Source: a virus
Length of the DNA: 22,974 nt
Reading direction: 5' to 3' (one strand)
IMG/VR virus record: IMGVR_UViG_3300015371_000192
Span: 1 to 22,974 of that record
How positions within the stretch are numbered: position 1 is the stretch's first letter; the number at the start of each line of letters is the position of its first letter. Below, piece after piece: positions 4,085 through 22,179 of this stretch. The translations under genes were made by a program, and so were the position numbers. Under the pieces are notes generated by a model, which saw only the letters and a list, made by a program, of their open reading frames with translations, was not told the DNA's origin and made no database searches.

Positions 4085-5017
4085 CTAGAGGTAGGCGCAG
4101 ATGGCGCGGATGACGGTGGTGCCGATGTCGCCCCTCTGTCCAATGGTCGAGCCGCCGTTGCTCGTCTTGGAGTTGAGGAAATACGACTGCTTGGTGGTCA
4201 GAACGAGCGTCCTGCGTCGGATGTGATTCTCGTACTGCTGGTCGAGAACGCCTGCCCCGCCCCCGTTGATCTGGGAGAGGCACGTCATGGAGATGTCGGA
4301 CTCGGTGTTATTCGCGGTCGAAAGAGTGGTGTATTTGCTCGGGTTCACATCGTCGTCGGTGTCGATGTAGGAGCAGGCTTCGTAGTAGAGCTCCCACACC
4401 CCGATCGGGACCGACAGAGACCGCGAGCCAAGGTTGTACCAGGTGCCTGCAACCGTGGCACCTTGGTTGTCATGCGCCGTCGAGGTCGTCTCGGCCGTCC
4501 ATTTCGTGGGGTCGAGGTTGAAGCCGAAGGGCGCCTTCTCACGGGACATGTACGGGAGGGTGATCGCGGCGTTCGCGAGCGTGTAGTCGGTGCCGCCGTA
4601 GATCGTGACCGTCGTGTTCGGCGCCGAGTAGGAGACCTTCGTGACGATGAAGTATTTCGCTGTCGTCTGGGTCAACTTGATTCGTTGGCCGGCGGCGTAC
4701 TTCGTTGTCAGATCGGTAGCGACCGTGAACGTGAACGTGGGCGAGTCAGCGGAGGCGTATGTCCAGGTCTCGCCGGTGGCGGCGGTCCAACCGTCAGTCG
4801 ATGCGCTCGAGCCCGCCCCCGGTAGGTCGCCGGCGATCTCGACGAGGACAAAGTTCTTGATCCAGGACTTGAACTCCGGACTGAGCTCCGTGACGGAAGC
4901 GTTGTAGCGCAGCCATTGCGCCCGCTCTTTGTCGTCGAGCTTGCCGGGGAGGGACTCGGGCTTCTTCAGGTACTCGCTGGTCGTGTTGCCGAACTGGTCG
5001 GGCAGGAACTCGCTCAC
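4085..5017 (-). CDS. Tail fibre / receptor-binding-type protein, 310 aa
   Basis: It starts at an ATG overlapping the stop of the nozzle-like gene by four bases (ATGA). The N-terminal 55 residues include FKSWIKNFVLVEIAGDLPGA and look like an attachment region. Residues about 75-175 form a beta-rich module with TWTYASADSPTFTFTV, AKYFIVTKVSYSAPNTTVTI and YGGTDYTLANAAITLPYMS. I recognise this string as a module that recurs in tail fibre or tail tip proteins of many unrelated tailed phages. It is followed by FGFNLDPTKWT and a Ser/Thr-rich beta domain of about 130 residues, probably the adhesin head. The location directly after the nozzle supports a tail-tip or fibre role in binding the host surface. 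The receptor cannot be predicted. Confidence 0.75.
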   Translation of the reverse strand: MSEFLPDQFGNTTSEYLKKPESLPGKLDDKERAQWLRYNASVTELSPEFKSWIKNFVLVEIAGDLPGAGSSASTDGWTAATGETWTYASADSPTFTFTVATDLTTKYAAGQRIKLTQTTAKYFIVTKVSYSAPNTTVTIYGGTDYTLANAAITLPYMSREKAPFGFNLDPTKWTAETTSTAHDNQGATVAGTWYNLGSRSLSVPIGVWELYYEACSYIDTDDDVNPSKYTTLSTANNTESDISMTCLSQINGGGAGVLDQQYENHIRRRTLVLTTKQSYFLNSKTSNGGSTIGQRGDIGTTVIRAICAYL

Positions 5018-7178: not shown

Positions 7179-8423
7179 TTACTGACCGACGCCCATCAGC
7201 GTTCGGAAGAGCCGTGCAACGGCGCCGCCGCCGGCGACGAAGGTGGCGACCAAAGTGGCGGTCGCGGACGCGGTCGCAGACAGCGTCTTCAGGACGACCT
7301 TCTGGATCGTGGCCGTCGAGGTCGCGCTCGCAGAGACCGTCTTCAGGACAACGCGGGACATGGTCGCGGTCGCGGTTGCGTTCGCCGTCAGCGCGACCAG
7401 CTTCACCTTCTGCGCGAGCAGCGAAGCGGTGGAGGTCGCCGTCGCGGTCAGGAGCTTCAGGACGGTGCGGGTCATCGTCGCCGTCGCGGTCGCAGAGGCG
7501 GTAAGAGCCTTCGCGACCGTTCTCGTCATCGTCGCCGTCGACGTGGCGGAAGCGGAGACGGTCTTCAGCACCGTCCGGGTCATCGTCGCCGTGGCCGTCG
7601 CCGTCGCGGTCAGCGTCAGCGTGACCGAGCGAAGGGTTGCGATCGTCGCGGTCGCCGTGGCCGAGCTCGAGAGCAGCTTCAGCACGGTCTTCTGGATCGA
7701 GCTCGTCGCCGTCGCGGTCGCGGTGAGCGCTTTCGCGACCGTCTTCTGGATCGTCGCGGTGGCGGTCGCGGTTGCGGTGACGCGCTTGGCGACGTTGACG
7801 GCGATCGTGGCGGTCGCGGTTGCGTTCGCGGTCAACGCCTGCGGGAACACGGTCGGCGCAACCACGCTGCCGGCGTCGGGAAGCGGGAACGGGAGGAAGA
7901 CGTTGCCGGGGCGGCGGAAGCGCTTCAGCGCGAACGGGAAAACGCGCCTGCCCGGACCGCTCTGGGGGGAGTCCTCGCCCCAGATGATCGCGTTGACAAC
8001 GCTCGGGCCGGCGGTTACGCCGTAGGGGTTCGGGAAGTCCTGGCTGGTCGGGTTCGTCTCGAAGTAGTTGCCGCCCGAGTCACCCTGGAAGTTGTAGGCG
8101 TCCCCGGCCGACCGGATCGCGAGCCAATACTTCGTGCCGCTGACGATGGCGACGCCGGGACTGATGATCGCCCCGAAGACTCCTGTCCCGGTCGGGGTGC
8201 CGATCGTGACGGTGCCGACGCCCAACCTCGCGGCAGGGGCGGAACCCGAATCGGCGTAGATGCCGAGCTTGTAGCTGCTGCCCGTGTTCGCGACCTTCGA
8301 CTGCGCGAAGATGACGGTGAGCGTGCCGGAAGCTACAGCCGTGAAATCCCACGCTGCCGTCGTGTCCGAGGAGGCGAAGTCGGCAGTCGTGCTCGCCGTA
8401 GTGCGGCCGAGAAGAACGGCCAT
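7179..8423 (-). CDS. Fibre-like protein with beta-sandwich head and 18-residue repeats, 414 aa
   Basis: ATG at 8423, six bases after the preceding stop. Residues 1-150 look like a beta-sandwich resembling carbohydrate-binding domains of phage and actinobacterial surface proteins (SSYKLGIYADSGSAPAARLG, SGTKYWLAIRSAGDAYNF). Residues 155-185 are a basic/Pro linker. Residues 196-394 are about eleven tandem copies of an 18-residue unit with core ATATAT followed by [MIL]x[RK]xVxK. The extreme C-terminus is short (GGGAVARLFRTLMGVGQ). Alternating small and Thr residues with a periodic basic/hydrophobic turn suggest a beta-helical or fibrous trimer stalk. It lies among the virion genes just before the adaptor. 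Most likely a head fibre, decoration or tail fibre; binding to sugars is inference. Confidence 0.75.
   Translation of the reverse strand: MAVLLGRTTASTTADFASSDTTAAWDFTAVASGTLTVIFAQSKVANTGSSYKLGIYADSGSAPAARLGVGTVTIGTPTGTGVFGAIISPGVAIVSGTKYWLAIRSAGDAYNFQGDSGGNYFETNPTSQDFPNPYGVTAGPSVVNAIIWGEDSPQSGPGRRVFPFALKRFRRPGNVFLPFPLPDAGSVVAPTVFPQALTANATATATIAVNVAKRVTATATATATIQKTVAKALTATATATSSIQKTVLKLLSSSATATATIATLRSVTLTLTATATATATMTRTVLKTVSASATSTATMTRTVAKALTASATATATMTRTVLKLLTATATSTASLLAQKVKLVALTANATATATMSRVVLKTVSASATSTATIQKVVLKTLSATASATATLVATFVAGGGAVARLFRTLMGVGQ
7242..7838 (-). repeat. Eleven tandem, degenerate ~54-bp coding repeats (18 aa units)
   Basis: Within the fibre-like gene, residues 196-394, units such as LTASATATATMTRTVLK, VSASATSTATMTRTVAK and LTATATATATIQKTVAK follow one another with a period of about 18 residues. 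Two units are one or two residues longer (IATLRSVTLT region and LLAQKVKLVA region). At DNA level the plus strand shows many gtcgccgtcgcggtcgcggt-like tracts. Copies are diverged rather than identical. A mirror of the repeat appears as a long Val/Ala-rich frame on the other strand, which is not a gene. Confidence 0.9.
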
Positions 8424-9210: not shown

Positions 9211-9606
9211 TTAGTTGTCGTAGATGACCTTCATCGTGAACGTGATCGCGTCCGCAATTGCGAGCCCAATTCCCGTGAAGTCACCCTTCATGTAGAGGTT
9301 GCCGCCCGAGGCCGCGTCGAAAAGGCCGGCGTTCGTGACGGTGCCGGCGCCGGTCGCGGTGCGGGTGCCGACCACCTGGTAGGTGTCGTTCGTGGTCGTC
9401 GTTGTCTGCCGCGTCGACGTGCCCACCGTGTGGTCGGTGCCGGCCGACGTGGTCAGGTCGACGAGCTTTTCGGTGAAGAGGGTCGTGTCGGTTCGGGCGG
9501 TGGTGCCGGCGGCCGTTCCCCAACCGATGTTCAGTGGCTCGGTGCCCGAGCCCTTGAGTCGGTTTGTGGTGATGTCGAGTCCGCCGTCAAGAAGGAAGGT
9601 CGCCAT
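9211..9606 (-). CDS. Small beta-rich virion protein, 131 aa
   Basis: Starts at the ATG at 9606, 20 bases inside the end of the preceding 57-codon gene. The product is Thr/Gly-rich, for example PLNIGWGTAAGTTARTDT, HTVGTSTRQTTTTTND, and ends NLYMKGDFTGIGLAIADAIT followed by FTMKVIYDN. The GWGT, NAGLFDAASGGNLYMKGDF and DAITFTMKV elements are, from memory, shared by a family of small virion proteins in many tailed phages, usually next to a small basic protein like the one upstream here. It lacks a signal peptide. A head- or tail-surface role is likely but not proven. Confidence 0.72.
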   Translation of the reverse strand: MATFLLDGGLDITTNRLKGSGTEPLNIGWGTAAGTTARTDTTLFTEKLVDLTTSAGTDHTVGTSTRQTTTTTNDTYQVVGTRTATGAGTVTNAGLFDAASGGNLYMKGDFTGIGLAIADAITFTMKVIYDN

Positions 9607-10096: not shown

Positions 10097-10411
10097 CTAC
10101 AGGCTCTTCAGCGCCGCGAGCCCGTCCGCGATCTGCTTGCCGGCGGCGACCGCCTTCTCACCGTTGTCGGCGAGCTGACGCTGCTCGTTCAACTGCCGTT
10201 CCAGGCTCGAGACCTGACGGGTCGAGTCGGCGAGCGACTGCTCCATCACCTTCAGGTCTTCCTCGAGCTGGACTGCCGCATCGAGCTTCTTCTGGGCGGA
10301 GCCGAGCAGCTTGCTTTGCCGGCTGACTTCTGCGGAGAGCTCGGAGGCGCGAGCCTTGATCTCCTGGAGCTGGACGGCGAGCTCCGACTCCCGGTCCTTT
10401 GTGGCGGGCAT
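10097..10411 (-). CDS. Coiled-coil protein, 104 aa
   Basis: The ATG at 10411 overlaps the TAA of the zinc-ribbon gene (TAATG). Nearly the whole product is a heptad-rich helix, for example SELAVQLQEIKARASELSAE, KKLDAAVQLEEDLKVMEQSL and STRQVSSLERQLNEQRQLAD. There are no cysteines and no membrane segment. It may be a trimeric stalk, an assembly chaperone or a small scaffold element. It separates the glycosyltransferase/methyltransferase/zinc-ribbon group from the small beta-rich virion proteins. Function not recognisable from sequence. Confidence 0.72.
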   Translation of the reverse strand: MPATKDRESELAVQLQEIKARASELSAEVSRQSKLLGSAQKKLDAAVQLEEDLKVMEQSLADSTRQVSSLERQLNEQRQLADNGEKAVAAGKQIADGLAALKSL

Positions 10412-10809
10412 TAGCTTCCTTTCATCGAACGGGGGACGAGGATTCCGTGCGTGGACTCGTAGAAGTTGCGCTCGTGGTTGTCGTCGACGCGCTCGAGGCC
10501 GGCTTCGATCGAGACGGCCCGCGGGTCACGCTCGACCCCCTTGAACTTGCGGGTGAAGTCGAGCTGCTGGAACTCGCGCATCGGGTAGCCGCAGAGCCCG
10601 CAGTTCTCGGGGAAGGCGTGCTCGTGCGGCTCGAGGCAGTCGAGACAGACGTAGCCCAAGCGCATCCGCTCGATGTCCTTCGCTTTGAAGCGCATCTGCA
10701 CATCGAGGGTTGGCCGGCCGGTCTCGATCGTGACGTTGTCGTAGTCGTCTCGGACCGCCAGAGGGATCACCGGCTCGCGCCAGCGCTCGTGCAGGGTGTC
10801 TTCGCTCAT
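10411..10809 (-). CDS. Zinc-ribbon protein, 132 aa, next to glycosyl/methyl transferases
   Basis: The ATG at 10809 overlaps the methyltransferase TGA by four bases (ATGA); longer upstream extension in this frame is an antiparallel-free shadow of the methyltransferase gene. Residues 55, 58, 70 and 73 form CxxC-x11-CxxC within YVCLDCLEPHEHAFPENC and GLCGYPM, a rubredoxin-like zinc ribbon. N-terminal residues (HERWREPVIPLAVRDD) and the C-terminal part (FTRKFKGVERDPRAVSIEAG, then LERVDDNHERNFYESTHGI) are charged. No nuclease or polymerase motif is seen. Its place directly after two transferase genes suggests a partner or a structural protein; zinc ribbons of this size also occur in virion genes of other actinophages. 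Role unknown. Confidence 0.72.
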   Translation of the reverse strand: MSEDTLHERWREPVIPLAVRDDYDNVTIETGRPTLDVQMRFKAKDIERMRLGYVCLDCLEPHEHAFPENCGLCGYPMREFQQLDFTRKFKGVERDPRAVSIEAGLERVDDNHERNFYESTHGILVPRSMKGS

Positions 10810-11288
10810 GGCCGCTTCGCGATCCCGAACACGCCCGGGTGGCCTGGGTACCAGTCGGGCTCGACGCGCACGATCTCGAGACCGTTCGTCTCGAAGAGGA
10901 GCGAGATCGAGTCCTCGGTGAAGCGCCAGTAGTCGCCGGGGTACTCGTGGTAGGGGAAGCCGATGCCGCGGGTGGTGATCAGCATGTGACCTCCGGACTT
11001 CAGGACTCGTTTCATCTCCGGGATCGAGAGCCAGAAGGAGGGGTCGTGCTCGAGCATCTCGGTCGAGATCACGGTCTCGAAGGTCTCGTCCTCGAAGGGG
11101 AGCTCGGACGCGAGCGCGACGATGTCGACGTCCGGGCCGGGGAGCATGTCGACGCCGACGTACTCGCCGGTGAAGAAGGGGCGGACGGTGCCGTTGTAGT
11201 TCTGGCTGCCGCACTCGAGGGTCTTCAGGTCAGCGAGATTCCACTGCTTGACTTGCTGCAACGTCCAGCTCATGACGCTCTGATGCAC
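10806..11288 (-). CDS. Class I SAM-dependent methyltransferase, 160 aa
   Basis: The chosen start is a GTG at 11288 because AAGGAGG lies six bases before it; an ATG at 11273 in the same frame has no clear ribosome site, and a start at 11324 is also open. Counting from the ATG at 11273: motif I is LECGSQNYNGTV (residues 19-30), the acidic ribose-binding position is VGVDM (39-43), motif IV is TVISTEMLEHDP (67-78) and the post-motif strand is MKRVLKSGGHMLITTRG (87-103). This is the methyltransferase type 11 pattern. FPYHEYPGDYWRFTED is a familiar segment in small-molecule or sugar methyltransferases. It is short for the fold. It overlaps the glycosyltransferase end by 59 bases, so the two are probably co-translated and may act on the same glycan. 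Substrate unknown. Confidence 0.82.
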   Translation of the reverse strand: MHQSVMSWTLQQVKQWNLADLKTLECGSQNYNGTVRPFFTGEYVGVDMLPGPDVDIVALASELPFEDETFETVISTEMLEHDPSFWLSIPEMKRVLKSGGHMLITTRGIGFPYHEYPGDYWRFTEDSISLLFETNGLEIVRVEPDWYPGHPGVFGIAKRP

Positions 11289-12285
11289 TGACTGCCTCCT
11301 TCCACTTGTCGATGTGGTGGGCAATCAGCTTCTGGTCGAGCACGAACTGGCGAGCTTTCTTCGCCATCTCCTTCACGTCGTCCGGCGAGTTGACCGCCCA
11401 CTTGACGATCCGGCGCCACTCCGTCTCCGTCGACGCGGAAGGGACAACGTCGATCCAGTCGGCGTAGCAGGGGGAGTCGGCCTGCACGATCGGGAGGGCG
11501 CCCGAGAGCGCGTACTCGATCGCCTTGATGTCCGACTTCGCGTCGTGCCAGGGGGAGCGCTTCAGCGGGCAGAGCCCGACGTCGAGCACCTGGAGGTTCT
11601 TGCGGTAGACGGCGAGGTCGTTCGCCCACGGGAAGATCTCGTGCGGGAATGTCCAGTGGACGTTGCCGAGCCCGATCTTCCAGACCATCGTCTTGCGCTG
11701 GTCGGCTGCCCAGCTCAGGGCTCGCTTGATCAGGGTGACGTCGTGAACGTGGCTGTCGGAGCCGGCGTAGCCGACGCAGAAGACCTCGCTCTGTTTCTCG
11801 AACGGCTCGGGCCAGTCGTCCAGGTCGACGCTGTTCGGGCAGACGTAGATCGGCGCCGTAGTTGCGGACGCATATTGCTCCGCGAGTGTCGGCGTGGTGA
11901 CGATGACCCCGTCGACCCATTGCACGATCCGGGCGTGCGCCTCGTGGCTGTATCTGTCCTCGGGCGTCCGGTCGACGCGGGCCTGCCACTCGGACGCGAA
12001 GCCGGCGCGGTGGGGGGCGGCGAGGAGGTAGTTGTCGTCGACCTCCACGAGCACCTTGGCGACGTTCTCGGTCTGAAGGTGCGCCATGATCAGCGCCCTG
12101 GTCGCGTTGCCGGGGAACTGCCAGATCGACGCTCCCTCCTGGCCGACCAGGCGGACGCCGTCGTACTCGTCGACGAGGCTCTCGTTACGGAGCTGAAGCA
12201 CCTGTCCCGGCAACGCCCGCGCCGGCACGTCGCAGCGCCAGTACGTGGTGCCGGGGGTGGCCTGCCGCCACCATGTGGCGAGCAT
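11230..12285 (-). CDS. GT4-like glycosyltransferase, 351 aa
   Basis: The frame is open to 12687, but the ATG at 12285 overlaps the TAA of the upstream gene (TAATG) and starts the foldable protein; the upstream part is Arg/Ala shadow. Domain features: an N-terminal Rossmann half with KVLVEVDDNYLLAAP (77-91) and VDGVIVTTPTLAEQY (124-138), the interdomain YVCPNSVDLDDWPEPF (147-162), and a C-terminal nucleotide-sugar half starting VGYAGSDSHVHD (171-182). The donor-site segment is PLKRSPWHDAKSDIKAIEYA (240-259) followed by SGALPIVQADSPCY. The KSxIKxxEYAxxGxxP pattern is that of a GT4 subgroup I know from cell-surface glycan enzymes. The enzyme should move a sugar from a nucleotide donor to an unknown acceptor. 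Its location inside the virion operon points to modification of virion proteins. Confidence 0.83.
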   Translation of the reverse strand: MLATWWRQATPGTTYWRCDVPARALPGQVLQLRNESLVDEYDGVRLVGQEGASIWQFPGNATRALIMAHLQTENVAKVLVEVDDNYLLAAPHRAGFASEWQARVDRTPEDRYSHEAHARIVQWVDGVIVTTPTLAEQYASATTAPIYVCPNSVDLDDWPEPFEKQSEVFCVGYAGSDSHVHDVTLIKRALSWAADQRKTMVWKIGLGNVHWTFPHEIFPWANDLAVYRKNLQVLDVGLCPLKRSPWHDAKSDIKAIEYALSGALPIVQADSPCYADWIDVVPSASTETEWRRIVKWAVNSPDDVKEMAKKARQFVLDQKLIAHHIDKWKEAVSASERHELDVAASQAVESR

Positions 12286-12833
12286 TACGCTTCGACGAGG
12301 GTTTCGACGTTCGCCTCGAGCTCCGCGATCACGATCTCCCGATTCAGGTTCTCGCGCTCGTAAGCGGCGACGGTCTGCGGGTCGAGCCCGAGCGTGCGCA
12401 CGGTCTCGGCGATCTGCGCGGCGACGAGCTCGATCGTGCGCCGGCCCTGCGGCACGAGCTCGTCGTACTTCGGCCACGGCGCCGGCAGGCGCGGGCGCTC
12501 GATCCGGAAGTAGTCGGCGTTCTGGCCGTCGTCGAGCATCTTCTCGACCGCCGCCTTCTCCTCGTCCGACCAGTTGAGCCGCTTCGCTTCCTCGTCGGTG
12601 TCGTAGGAGCTGATCCGCTTCAGCGGGTCCTCGCCGTCTGCGACCCCTTTGAAGCCGAAATGTGTGACGGCAAAGTCGCGCTCCCAAGGCGTGATCCCGA
12701 CCGGCCGAAAGAAGGCGATGTGGGGAGCCGAGACTTCGTGCAGCACCGGCCCGTTCTGCCCCTGAATCAGGGTGTGTGTTGCCTTGCGGACAGTCTTCTT
12801 CATCGACGAATACTTCGAGATGTAACGAGCCAC
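12285..12833 (-). CDS. Unknown protein, 182 aa, in virion operon
   Basis: The start is a GTG at 12833 with GGAGG about five bases upstream in the ten-base gap to the previous stop. The product opens with a basic segment (ARYISKYSSMKKTVRKATHT), then GPVLHEVSAPHIAFFRPVGI, WERDFAVTHFGFKGVADGED, and an acidic helical part with DTDEEAKRLNWSDEEKAAVE. The last 50 residues are helical (IAETVRTLGLDPQTVAAYER, REIVIAELEANVETLVEA). I recall similar proteins just after the capsid gene in actinophages, without a known role. It could be a head completion or capsid-associated protein. It ends in a TAATG overlap with the glycosyltransferase. Confidence 0.72.
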   Translation of the reverse strand: MARYISKYSSMKKTVRKATHTLIQGQNGPVLHEVSAPHIAFFRPVGITPWERDFAVTHFGFKGVADGEDPLKRISSYDTDEEAKRLNWSDEEKAAVEKMLDDGQNADYFRIERPRLPAPWPKYDELVPQGRRTIELVAAQIAETVRTLGLDPQTVAAYERENLNREIVIAELEANVETLVEA

Positions 12834-12843
12834 TTTTCCTCCG

Positions 12844-13125
12844 TTATGTCAGGGTTCTGACCGCGGCCGAGAGCGCCTGAATGGCGTCGATTTCCGCGTT
12901 CAGCTTGTCCCGTTCCTCTTGCAGATTCGCAACGGCGACAACGTCGATCACGCCGGCGTCTTGGAGCACGGTGTTCTGTTCGGCGGTGAGCAGGACTTGG
13001 GCGTCGTCCTCGAGCTTCAACCTCGAGAGCGTGTCTTTGACCTTGTCGAGCTCGGCCTTCTTCCCCTGCCGGATCTCGCGAAGCTGGCGCAGGTAGTCGT
13101 CTCGATGCCCTTCGTCTACGGCCAA
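12844..13125 (-). CDS. Coiled-coil protein, 93 aa
   Basis: The start is a TTG at 13125 with AGGAGG five to six bases upstream. It is the first gene after the hairpin that follows the capsid gene. The product is two helices rich in charged heptads (REIRQGKKAELDKVKDTLSR and NLQEERDKLNAEIDAIQALS) linked by a short hydrophobic part (AGVIDVVAVA). There are no cysteines and no membrane segment. Similar short coiled-coil products follow the capsid gene in other phages, but I cannot name a family. A structural or assembly role is likely. Confidence 0.68.
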   Translation of the reverse strand: MAVDEGHRDDYLRQLREIRQGKKAELDKVKDTLSRLKLEDDAQVLLTAEQNTVLQDAGVIDVVAVANLQEERDKLNAEIDAIQALSAAVRTLT

Positions 13126-13230: not shown

Positions 13231-14403
13231 CTACGAAGTGGCGTTCTTGATGATCGCGTGCTTCTGCTCGTTCTGGAGCTCGAAGCTGGTCTCCGTCAGG
13301 TACTCCTCCGTGACACGGTCGGCGTCGTTCGCCTGCCGGTTGCGGAGAAGGACCGTGTTCTGGAGCGGGCGCAGCCGAACTGCGTCCATGTCCACAACGA
13401 AGGCCCACGATCCGTACTGAGAGGAGGTCGAGGAGAGATCTCCCCACTCCCTCTTGACGAACACCGGGATCTCGTACCCGTAGGCACCCGACACGAGGCC
13501 GTCGATCTTGACGCCCCAGATCGTGTTCTCACGGGTTGCCCGGACCCAGTTGTCCCTCGCATACGTGGAGATGATGCGAGCAACGAGCGGGGCACAGAAG
13601 ATGACCTTGTTCTGCCCAGAGCCGTACTGCAAGTCGGTCTGGAGGAACGTGTCAAGCTCCGTGGAGGTCATCTGCCCCGACGGGTCGTGGATGTTGGAGG
13701 TAAGGAACTCGAAGATCCCGCCCATGAAGCCGGACGGCTCGTTGCCTCCCTGACCCGTGGTGTCGAGCTCACGAGGCCCGAAGAAGAGGGCTGCCTCGAG
13801 CTGCCGCTTGTGCTCGATCGCCTTCTTCTTGCGCTCGTAGTTCGGCTCGCCCCCGGTGTAGAGACGCGACTGCGTCAGGGTGCGAGTGAAGCTGTAGGAC
13901 AGGCGGAAGATCTGCGTGTAGTTGAACTGCGCCACACGCTCGACCACCTTTGACGTCGGCAGGAGCCCGCCCTGTGGGGAGGCGTTGCCGATGATCACGA
14001 GCTCGGCGCCGGACGCCGACGTTGCCGCCGCGACCGTGCCGATGGAGCGGGTGATCCCGACCGAGTCGGAAGTGACACCCGTGACCTCATACGCCTCGCC
14101 GTTGACCGCGTTGCGGACAACGTCGCCGACGATGAAGTAGATCCCCTCGCCCGCCGTCACGTCCATTGACGCCGTGCCCGCCGAAGCGGTCGCGGCGAGC
14201 GCGGACTTGCGCGGGAAGAGCCGATCCTCGAGCCATTCCACCTTGCTCGAGTTGGCCGGCTTGCTTCTGACCTTCATGAGCGCAGTTGTGAACTGCGTCC
14301 ACTCGGTCTCGAGCATCCCGACGATGTCGGACATGTCGATGACCCGTTCGTTTTGCAGAATGTCTTGGTCGTCGACCAGTCCGGAGTTGATGGTCACTGC
14401 CAT
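13231..14403 (-). CDS. Major capsid protein, SU10/DUF5309 type, 390 aa
   Basis: The ATG at 14403 has GGAGAC about seven bases upstream. The protein forms the head shell. Family signs: the N-terminal helix with ERVIDMSDIVGMLETEWTQF, the strand KVEWLEDRLFP (54-64), a small beta insertion at about 78-140 (GEGIYFIVGDVVRN ... GAELVIIGNA), the NYTQIFRLSYSFTRT segment (161-175), a long helix (RKKKAIEHKRQLEAALFFG, 191-209) and SGFMGGIFEFLTSN (224-237). These are features of the HK97-fold family that I know as SU10 major capsid protein (DUF5309). Length is normal. It sits between the scaffold-like gene and a strong hairpin, as expected for the most highly expressed structural gene. Confidence 0.88.
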   Translation of the reverse strand: MAVTINSGLVDDQDILQNERVIDMSDIVGMLETEWTQFTTALMKVRSKPANSSKVEWLEDRLFPRKSALAATASAGTASMDVTAGEGIYFIVGDVVRNAVNGEAYEVTGVTSDSVGITRSIGTVAAATSASGAELVIIGNASPQGGLLPTSKVVERVAQFNYTQIFRLSYSFTRTLTQSRLYTGGEPNYERKKKAIEHKRQLEAALFFGPRELDTTGQGGNEPSGFMGGIFEFLTSNIHDPSGQMTSTELDTFLQTDLQYGSGQNKVIFCAPLVARIISTYARDNWVRATRENTIWGVKIDGLVSGAYGYEIPVFVKREWGDLSSTSSQYGSWAFVVDMDAVRLRPLQNTVLLRNRQANDADRVTEEYLTETSFELQNEQKHAIIKNATS

Positions 14404-20345: not shown

Positions 20346-20461
20346 GGGTGAGGAGACTGCCGCGCCGGTTCCGGCGTTTCGGGCCGGCGGAAGTCAACAG
20401 CCTCTATCGGCGTGCTTTCGACTTGGGCCGGTTCAGGTTGCTCTGGAAGCGCAATGCGTAG
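20342..20461 (+). CDS. Very basic small protein, 39 aa
   Basis: The GTG at 20342 overlaps the previous TGA and is preceded by a near-perfect AAGGAGG (20328-20334) at seven bases, which is strong support. The product is RVRRLPRRFRRFGPAEVNSL and then YRRAFDLGRFRLLWKRNA, with about one third Arg/Lys. It ends in TAG at 20459-20461 and overlaps the next ATG by eight bases. It could bind nucleic acid; no family is recognised. Confidence 0.58.
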   Translation: MRVRRLPRRFRRFGPAEVNSLYRRAFDLGRFRLLWKRNA

Positions 20462-20750
20462 GTATTACCCGCCCGAAATGAAGCAGACAGCGCGTAATCT
20501 CGCGAAAACGGGCAGAACGAACATGCAAATCGCGAAAATCCTGAATGTGTACCCGCAATTGGTCGATCGTTGGGTGAAATCGCAGGATCCCGAATATATG
20601 CGCAAAGAAGCGGAACGATTGCGCAATCGGCGTCACGAACAGGCGAAAATCTGCCCGGTATGCCACAAGAACAAGATTGTGAACCCGGGATCGACCCGTT
20701 GCACCGAGTGTTACAGGACCCGAAGGAAGGAGGCAGTGGCAGTCCACTAG
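20454..20750 (+). CDS. Helix-turn-helix / zinc-ribbon protein, 98 aa
   Basis: The frame is open to 20412, but the ATG at 20454 is chosen: GGAAG is just upstream and the start overlaps the preceding stop. Residues 8-42 contain a helix-turn-helix resembling those of transposases and small terminase-like proteins (TARNLAKTGRTNMQIAKILN, VYPQLVDRWVKS). Residues 67-86 are a CxxC-x12-CxxC zinc ribbon (CPVCHKNK, TRCTEC). It is basic overall. The gene is clearly richer in A and T (roughly 45-57 % GC by line) than the rest of the window and uses AAA, AAT and GAA codons freely, which suggests recent acquisition. Role: sequence-specific DNA binding; a terminase small subunit or HNH-associated factor are possibilities. 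Confidence 0.75.
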   Translation: MRRYYPPEMKQTARNLAKTGRTNMQIAKILNVYPQLVDRWVKSQDPEYMRKEAERLRNRRHEQAKICPVCHKNKIVNPGSTRCTECYRTRRKEAVAVH

Positions 20751-21537: not shown

Positions 21538-22179
21538 ATGGTCAAGCGCGTTAGCTGGACAGGGCTTCTAGCCCTGATCGTGATAGTCCTCTTCGTGGGG
21601 ACAGCCCGTGCGGACGAGTGCATGGGTGACAGGCCGAGCTGTGGTGGGGGAGGCGTGCTTGTGCCGCCGCCGCCGCCGCCGAGCCCGCCCCCGACAGAGC
21701 CCGCCCCTACGCCGGTGCCTGCTCCGACGCCGGCACCGCCGCCTCCGTCAGGAGAACCGCAGACGGGGTACACGTCAACGCAGGAGCTCGCCGACTACGG
21801 CGAAGACGGCCCGGAACAGATCGACACGATCTACCGGACGTTGCAGGCTCTGGACGGCACGAAGTGCTACGGGGCGAAATGGTCTGACCGCAACGGCCAC
21901 TTCTTCTACGTGAGGAAGGTCTTCCAACAGGTCAATTGGTGCGCCCGCGACGGTGTCATCTCGAGCTGGTCGGCGCAGCAATGGGTGGAGACCGGGCTCT
22001 ACTGTGTGCCGGCGACAAGCCCGGAAACGATCCGTCTCGCCGGCGGGGTGGGAGCGACGTTCGTGACGCTGATGAGCAGAGCAGCGTTCACCTGCAACCT
22101 GCGTCTCCTACCCGATCCGACAGACTGGGTCGACGTCGACGTGCGCTACGGCGCGGACGGGAGGATGACGGACGTATGA
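21538..22179 (+). CDS. Secreted proline-rich protein with Cys-containing C-terminal domain, 213 aa
   Basis: ATG with AGGCAGGGA upstream. Residues 1-25 are a signal peptide: basic start VKRVSW, hydrophobic TGLLALIVIVLFVGTA and an ARA cleavage site. After cleavage comes a short Cys-bearing part (C28, C35), then a Pro-rich linker at 42-75 (VPPPPPPSPPPTEPAPTPVP), and a folded domain at 78-213 with C110, C135, C156 and C186. Segments QQVNWCARDGVISSW and FTCNLRLLPDPTDWVDVDV resemble small secreted domains that I associate with deep-branching actinobacteria, a weak memory. It may act at the cell surface, for instance in superinfection exclusion, or be a cargo gene from the host. Next gene overlaps it by four bases. 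Confidence 0.75.
   Translation: MVKRVSWTGLLALIVIVLFVGTARADECMGDRPSCGGGGVLVPPPPPPSPPPTEPAPTPVPAPTPAPPPPSGEPQTGYTSTQELADYGEDGPEQIDTIYRTLQALDGTKCYGAKWSDRNGHFFYVRKVFQQVNWCARDGVISSWSAQQWVETGLYCVPATSPETIRLAGGVGATFVTLMSRAAFTCNLRLLPDPTDWVDVDVRYGADGRMTDV

Follow-up and report, generated by a model that had tools for sequence, protein, structure and literature searches.

A candidate glycan cassette of two genes at a fixed position in the late operon of an uncultivated phage group

We identified a glycosyltransferase gene (GT) and a methyltransferase gene (MT) in a viral late operon that probably (with a probability of about 0.6) make up a glycan cassette of two genes at a fixed position of this operon (the slot), serving to glycosylate a virion protein and then to O-methylate the sugar. 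The sequence analysed, hereafter the window, is an IMG/VR virus record of 22,974 bases. With a nucleotide-sugar as donor, GT would attach the sugar to a virion protein of the phage, and MT would next O-methylate it there. Three elements of this reading are inferred, namely a virion protein as acceptor, the sugar as the site of methylation, and the order of the two steps; virion glycosylation with sugar methylation is favoured by the position of the slot, the sugar-enzyme company of the two genes, and a functional parallel in mycobacteriophage Che8. The original prediction had assigned these activities to a trio that also included the adjacent zinc-ribbon gene (ZR). Its enzymatic part is supported by the location of GT and MT in the virion operon and the recurrence of GT in the slot, whereas ZR is not a member.

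The late genes of the window are encoded on the minus strand in the order terL, portal, scaffold, major capsid protein (MCP), g93, g182, GT, MT, ZR, a coiled-coil gene, fibre-like genes, g228, g485, and others (Table 1). Three overlapping genes for a GT4-like enzyme, a class I methyltransferase, and a four-cysteine zinc ribbon had been predicted at 10411–12285, and we confirmed them on this strand together with the predicted overlaps of 59 bases (GT/MT) and 4 bases (MT/ZR, ATGA). MT starts with GTG, six bases 3′ of AAGGAGG, and the residues that follow this start (M-H-x-S-V) are kept in two relatives, which supports the GTG start and hence the 59-base overlap. The overlaps had also been taken as the mark of one three-gene unit. 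They do not delimit the trio, because 1-base overlaps at 12285 and 10411 join it to both flanking genes and overlaps of like size occur elsewhere in the operon (4 bases at 5014–5017, 59 bases at 4085–4143); they reflect the dense packing of the whole operon and do not set three genes apart. Nothing useful came from Rfam, tRNA, and promoter/terminator scans. Among all fetched loci, the small coiled-coil-like genes CC104 (10097–10411) and g93 (12844–13125) were present in the window only. Two further frames lie on the opposite strand: one near the terL side (20412–20750) combines an HTH-like part with CxxC...CxxC pairs, and the other (21538–22179) begins with a signal-like stretch, contains a proline-rich linker, and possibly encodes a secreted protein. 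A 640-residue frame on the minus strand (2–1921) runs off the left end, and the virion module is thus cut by the contig end.

Table 1. Features of the window relevant to the proposed cassette, with the basis of each assignment.
Feature	Position	Strand	Basis
Major capsid protein (MCP)	13231..14403	-	phrog_1328 major head protein, E 2.2e-33
g182, conserved gene 3′ of capsid gene, upstream slot boundary	12285..12833	-	profile map of relatives
GT, GT-B fold, GT4-like glycosyltransferase, 351 aa	11230..12285	-	phrog_7162, AlphaFold2/Foldseek
MT, class I SAM-dependent methyltransferase, 160 aa	10806..11288	-	Methyltransf_11, phrog_32762
ZR, four-cysteine zinc-ribbon protein, 132 aa, downstream slot boundary	10411..10809	-	gene order in 68 readable loci
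g131, Thr-rich small structural/fibre-like protein, 24% Thr, candidate acceptor	9211..9606	-	composition; weak matches to phrog_240 and, below cut-off, Gp80
Thr-rich repeat protein, 28% Ser+Thr, candidate acceptor	7179..8423	-	composition; no significant Pfam or PHROG match

GT matches the PHROG 'glycosyltransferase' family phrog_7162 (E 2.7e-19) and is thus a phage-encoded glycosyltransferase. Its AlphaFold2 model (pLDDT 84) aligned in Foldseek to many GT-B/GT4 enzymes (E ~1e-9, probability 1.00, TM ~0.5–0.65), which places it in the GT-B fold. A sequence search returned no relative with a solved structure. All Pfam GT4 models scored below cut-off (PF13439, 19.2 bits versus the curated 28.5), so that we refer to the protein as GT4-like and not as GT4. 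GT4-like GT-B protein O-glycosyltransferases (GtfC/Gtf3 of accessory secretion, SdgB, GtfA) share this fold and are among the best Foldseek matches, but are only ~12% identical to GT; the fold does not indicate specificity, as glycogen synthase, MshA, and TreT match about equally well. MT exceeded the cut-off of Pfam Methyltransf_11 (E 4.3e-9, 37.3 bits versus 21.2, profile positions 47–95), and its N-terminal half is covered by the phage profile phrog_32762 (E 9.5e-19). The MT family is present in more than 500 viral stretches, and GT2 and other methyltransferases were the commonest Pfam matches among 83 proteins neighbouring it. MT is a putative sugar O-methyltransferase, an activity predicted solely from its glycosyltransferase neighbours.

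A capsid profile search of viral contigs recovered 80 loci, onto which the window genes were mapped by profile after fetching. These loci yielded 73 non-redundant capsids including that of the window, and 68 of them were readable from g182 to ZR. Capsid protein and profile alignments worked for this purpose; exact-pattern scans of viral contigs with single ZR, GT, or terL sequences gave nothing usable. In 59 of the 68 readable loci g182 is followed directly by ZR without GT (gap mostly 4–66 bases by profile ends), while in nine, including the window, GT occupies the interval from g182 to ZR, which there measures 1.1 to 4.1 kb. All nine GT carriers fall into one clade of 15 in the capsid tree (support 100/100), along with five members without GT and one unreadable member. 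GT thus occupies the slot in 9/14 readable clade members and in 0/54 readable members outside the clade. GT homologues are 39–48% identical, and eight relatives carry GT in the same slot. A GT search of the contigs of 38 relatives returned one match in each of eight, the same eight that carry GT in the slot. The main division among the capsids recurs in a tree of the nine GT sequences, and GT accordingly looks like a stable resident of this clade. The capsid search of genome contigs returned two weak matches only and therefore gave no host link.

Beyond GT, the contents of the slot vary. MT was absent from the slot in seven of the nine GT carriers and occurred there together with GT in the window and locus L124 only. 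Its homologues in two relatives are 61–62% identical; the 61% identical copy, in contig 3300025889_000012 (L039), is located upstream of terL, ~10 kb from GT. In that contig, the MT homologue is clustered with an RGP-family transferase, Methyltransf_24, and a DUF3431 gene downstream of fibre-type genes (L039:5962–8498). An unrelated location of the transferases, which would have spoken against the original prediction, was accordingly seen for MT in this one relative and not for GT, which keeps the same slot in nine phages. MT is an optional companion of GT that is also found elsewhere in the genome, and GT is the clade resident. This separability of MT from GT counts against our preferred explanation. 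The slot of L124 contains GT and MT together with a nucleotidyltransferase and one more protein, which lacks a Pfam match and which we read as transferase-like; that of L122 contains a nucleotidyltransferase, a GT2, and a GT2–GT4 fusion. L147 combines GT with a Methyltransf_24/CmcI-like O-methyltransferase, L121 combines GT with fibre-like genes, and the remaining carriers have GT alone. The CTP_transf_like nucleotidyltransferases and further transferase genes of L122 (11302–13896) and L124 (13291–14396) suggest that some phages of the group produce the activated sugar or polyol themselves. The nucleotidyltransferases resemble glycerol-3-phosphate cytidylyltransferases and heptose adenylyltransferases, at scores below the equivalog cut-offs.

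Virion glycosylation by phage enzymes has precedents. The glycosyltransferases gp108–110 of Che8 and gp38 of Corndog are reported to glycosylate the capsid and tail tube of mycobacteriophages (Freeman et al. 2023, as presented in PMC12363180, PMC11256854, and PMC12619734), and capsid glycosylation of Che8 is likewise described in PMC11256854 and PMC12363180. The label of an undescribed system, proposed for the window genes, was therefore too strong. Che8 gp108 is a glycosyltransferase joined to a methyltransferase domain and offers a functional parallel to the activities predicted for GT and MT of the window. However, gp108 has no detectable homology to GT (no BLASTP or hhalign alignment), gp109 and gp110 belong to PHROGs other than that of GT, and the Che8 genes are located at the right genome end, whereas GT and MT lie between capsid and tail genes. 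Pontimonas phage phiPsal1 (MG835450) encodes a group 1 glycosyltransferase, a methyltransferase of the same family as MT (38% identity over 113 aa), and a GT2 between its major capsid and neck genes, but has a different virion module, the methyltransferase on the opposite strand, and no annotated zinc-ribbon gene. Synechococcus phage S-CBS4 and Caudoviricetes ctKR88 also have a methyltransferase of this family near glycosyltransferases in the head region; they differ in that the S-CBS4 cassette lies between portal and capsid genes, that ctKR88 has several glycosyltransferases, and that the glycosyltransferases of both match phrog_2170, another PHROG family than that of GT. The arrangement of a glycosyltransferase near a methyltransferase in the head region recurs in these three unrelated phages. 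Together with the recurrence of GT in the exact slot of nine phages, the presence of the same MT family near glycosyltransferases in their head regions favours the virion-glycosylation reading.

Serotype conversion is a known role of phage glycosyltransferases. The main rival explanation, which we consider unlikely, is that the target of GT and MT is a glycan on the host surface (capsule, teichoic acid, or LPS), modified late in infection, for example to block superinfection or to keep progeny from re-adsorbing to debris, and that the two genes share the virion operon for timing only. Phage glycosyltransferases with such a role exist (PMC12619734), and the enzymes that the nucleotidyltransferases of L122 and L124 resemble, again below equivalog cut-offs, are used for surface polymers. 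Against this, the position of the slot among head genes is fixed in every carrier, no flippase or membrane-anchored glycosyltransferase was recognised adjacent to it, and neither GT nor MT contains a strongly hydrophobic, membrane-like segment.

Distinctly less probable is that GT, MT, and ZR act as one unit with ZR as target or partner of the transferases, as originally predicted. ZR follows directly 3′ of the cassette with its 4-base overlap, and the GT–ZR overlap in L032 is also 4 bases; such overlaps are, however, ordinary in this operon, and ZR adjoins g182 in 59/59 readable relatives without GT. Because ZR is found throughout the group without GT and MT, we rejected it as a transferase partner. 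A conserved GT–MT–ZR trio did not emerge from the neighbourhoods of relatives either, given these 59 loci with ZR and no GT and the seven of nine GT slots without MT. ZR is the next conserved gene 3′ of g182 in 68/68 readable loci, and all four of its cysteines are invariant among 68 distinct homologues; it is a core gene of the head/tail (virion) module that bounds the slot by chance and stands outside the cassette. In comparisons of the ZR model (pLDDT 76) with PDB and viral models, there was no significant structural match, the nearest sensible one being a short overlap with an NZF-type zinc finger, and Pfam DUF7130 matched only below cut-off. Least probable is that GT glycosylates phage DNA at a hypermodified base, with MT acting on the base or the sugar: DNA-glycosylating phage glycosyltransferases are well known (PMC12619734), but the scan of window genes, which represent part of the genome, recognised none for base modification, and GT is tied to capsid genes.

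For the favoured glycosylation of a virion protein, two Thr-rich products encoded downstream of ZR are candidate acceptors (Table 1). Both g131 and the repeat protein are Thr-rich internally; the latter is Ala/Thr-rich with repeats of ~20 residues and has homologues in L124 and L131 only. The 10.8-kb contig of L131 carries both candidate genes as well as g200 and lacks GT; in L125, which has GT, hardly any space for appendage genes is left between ZR and g228. That appendage genes do not track the presence of GT also counts against our explanation, and for this reason we name neither protein as the acceptor. The acceptor could equally be a capsid-linked protein such as MCP or g182. A further point against our explanation is the C-tail of the window MCP, which is not Ser/Thr-rich; in mycobacteriophages, glycans are reported at C-termini (PMC12619734).

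We further propose, tentatively and with more doubt than conviction, that an uncultivated podovirus-like group may possess a lineage-wide, position-fixed 'glycan slot' in its capsid-to-tail operon that swaps sugar chemistries on one capsid-associated acceptor and acts as a modular coat system of the virion, some members perhaps supplying their own activated sugar or polyol. The versions considered are a single GT, GT with MT, GT with MT and a nucleotidyltransferase, and a nucleotidyltransferase with GT2 and GT. Glycosylation of virions by phage glycosyltransferases is already known; what stands out here is a fixed slot with changing sugar-gene contents. If our reading is correct, phage-encoded virion glycosylation would extend from mycobacteriophages to an uncultivated group without a close isolate, and its empty, single-gene, and multi-gene slots would provide a natural comparison for the role and the carrier protein of a virion sugar coat.
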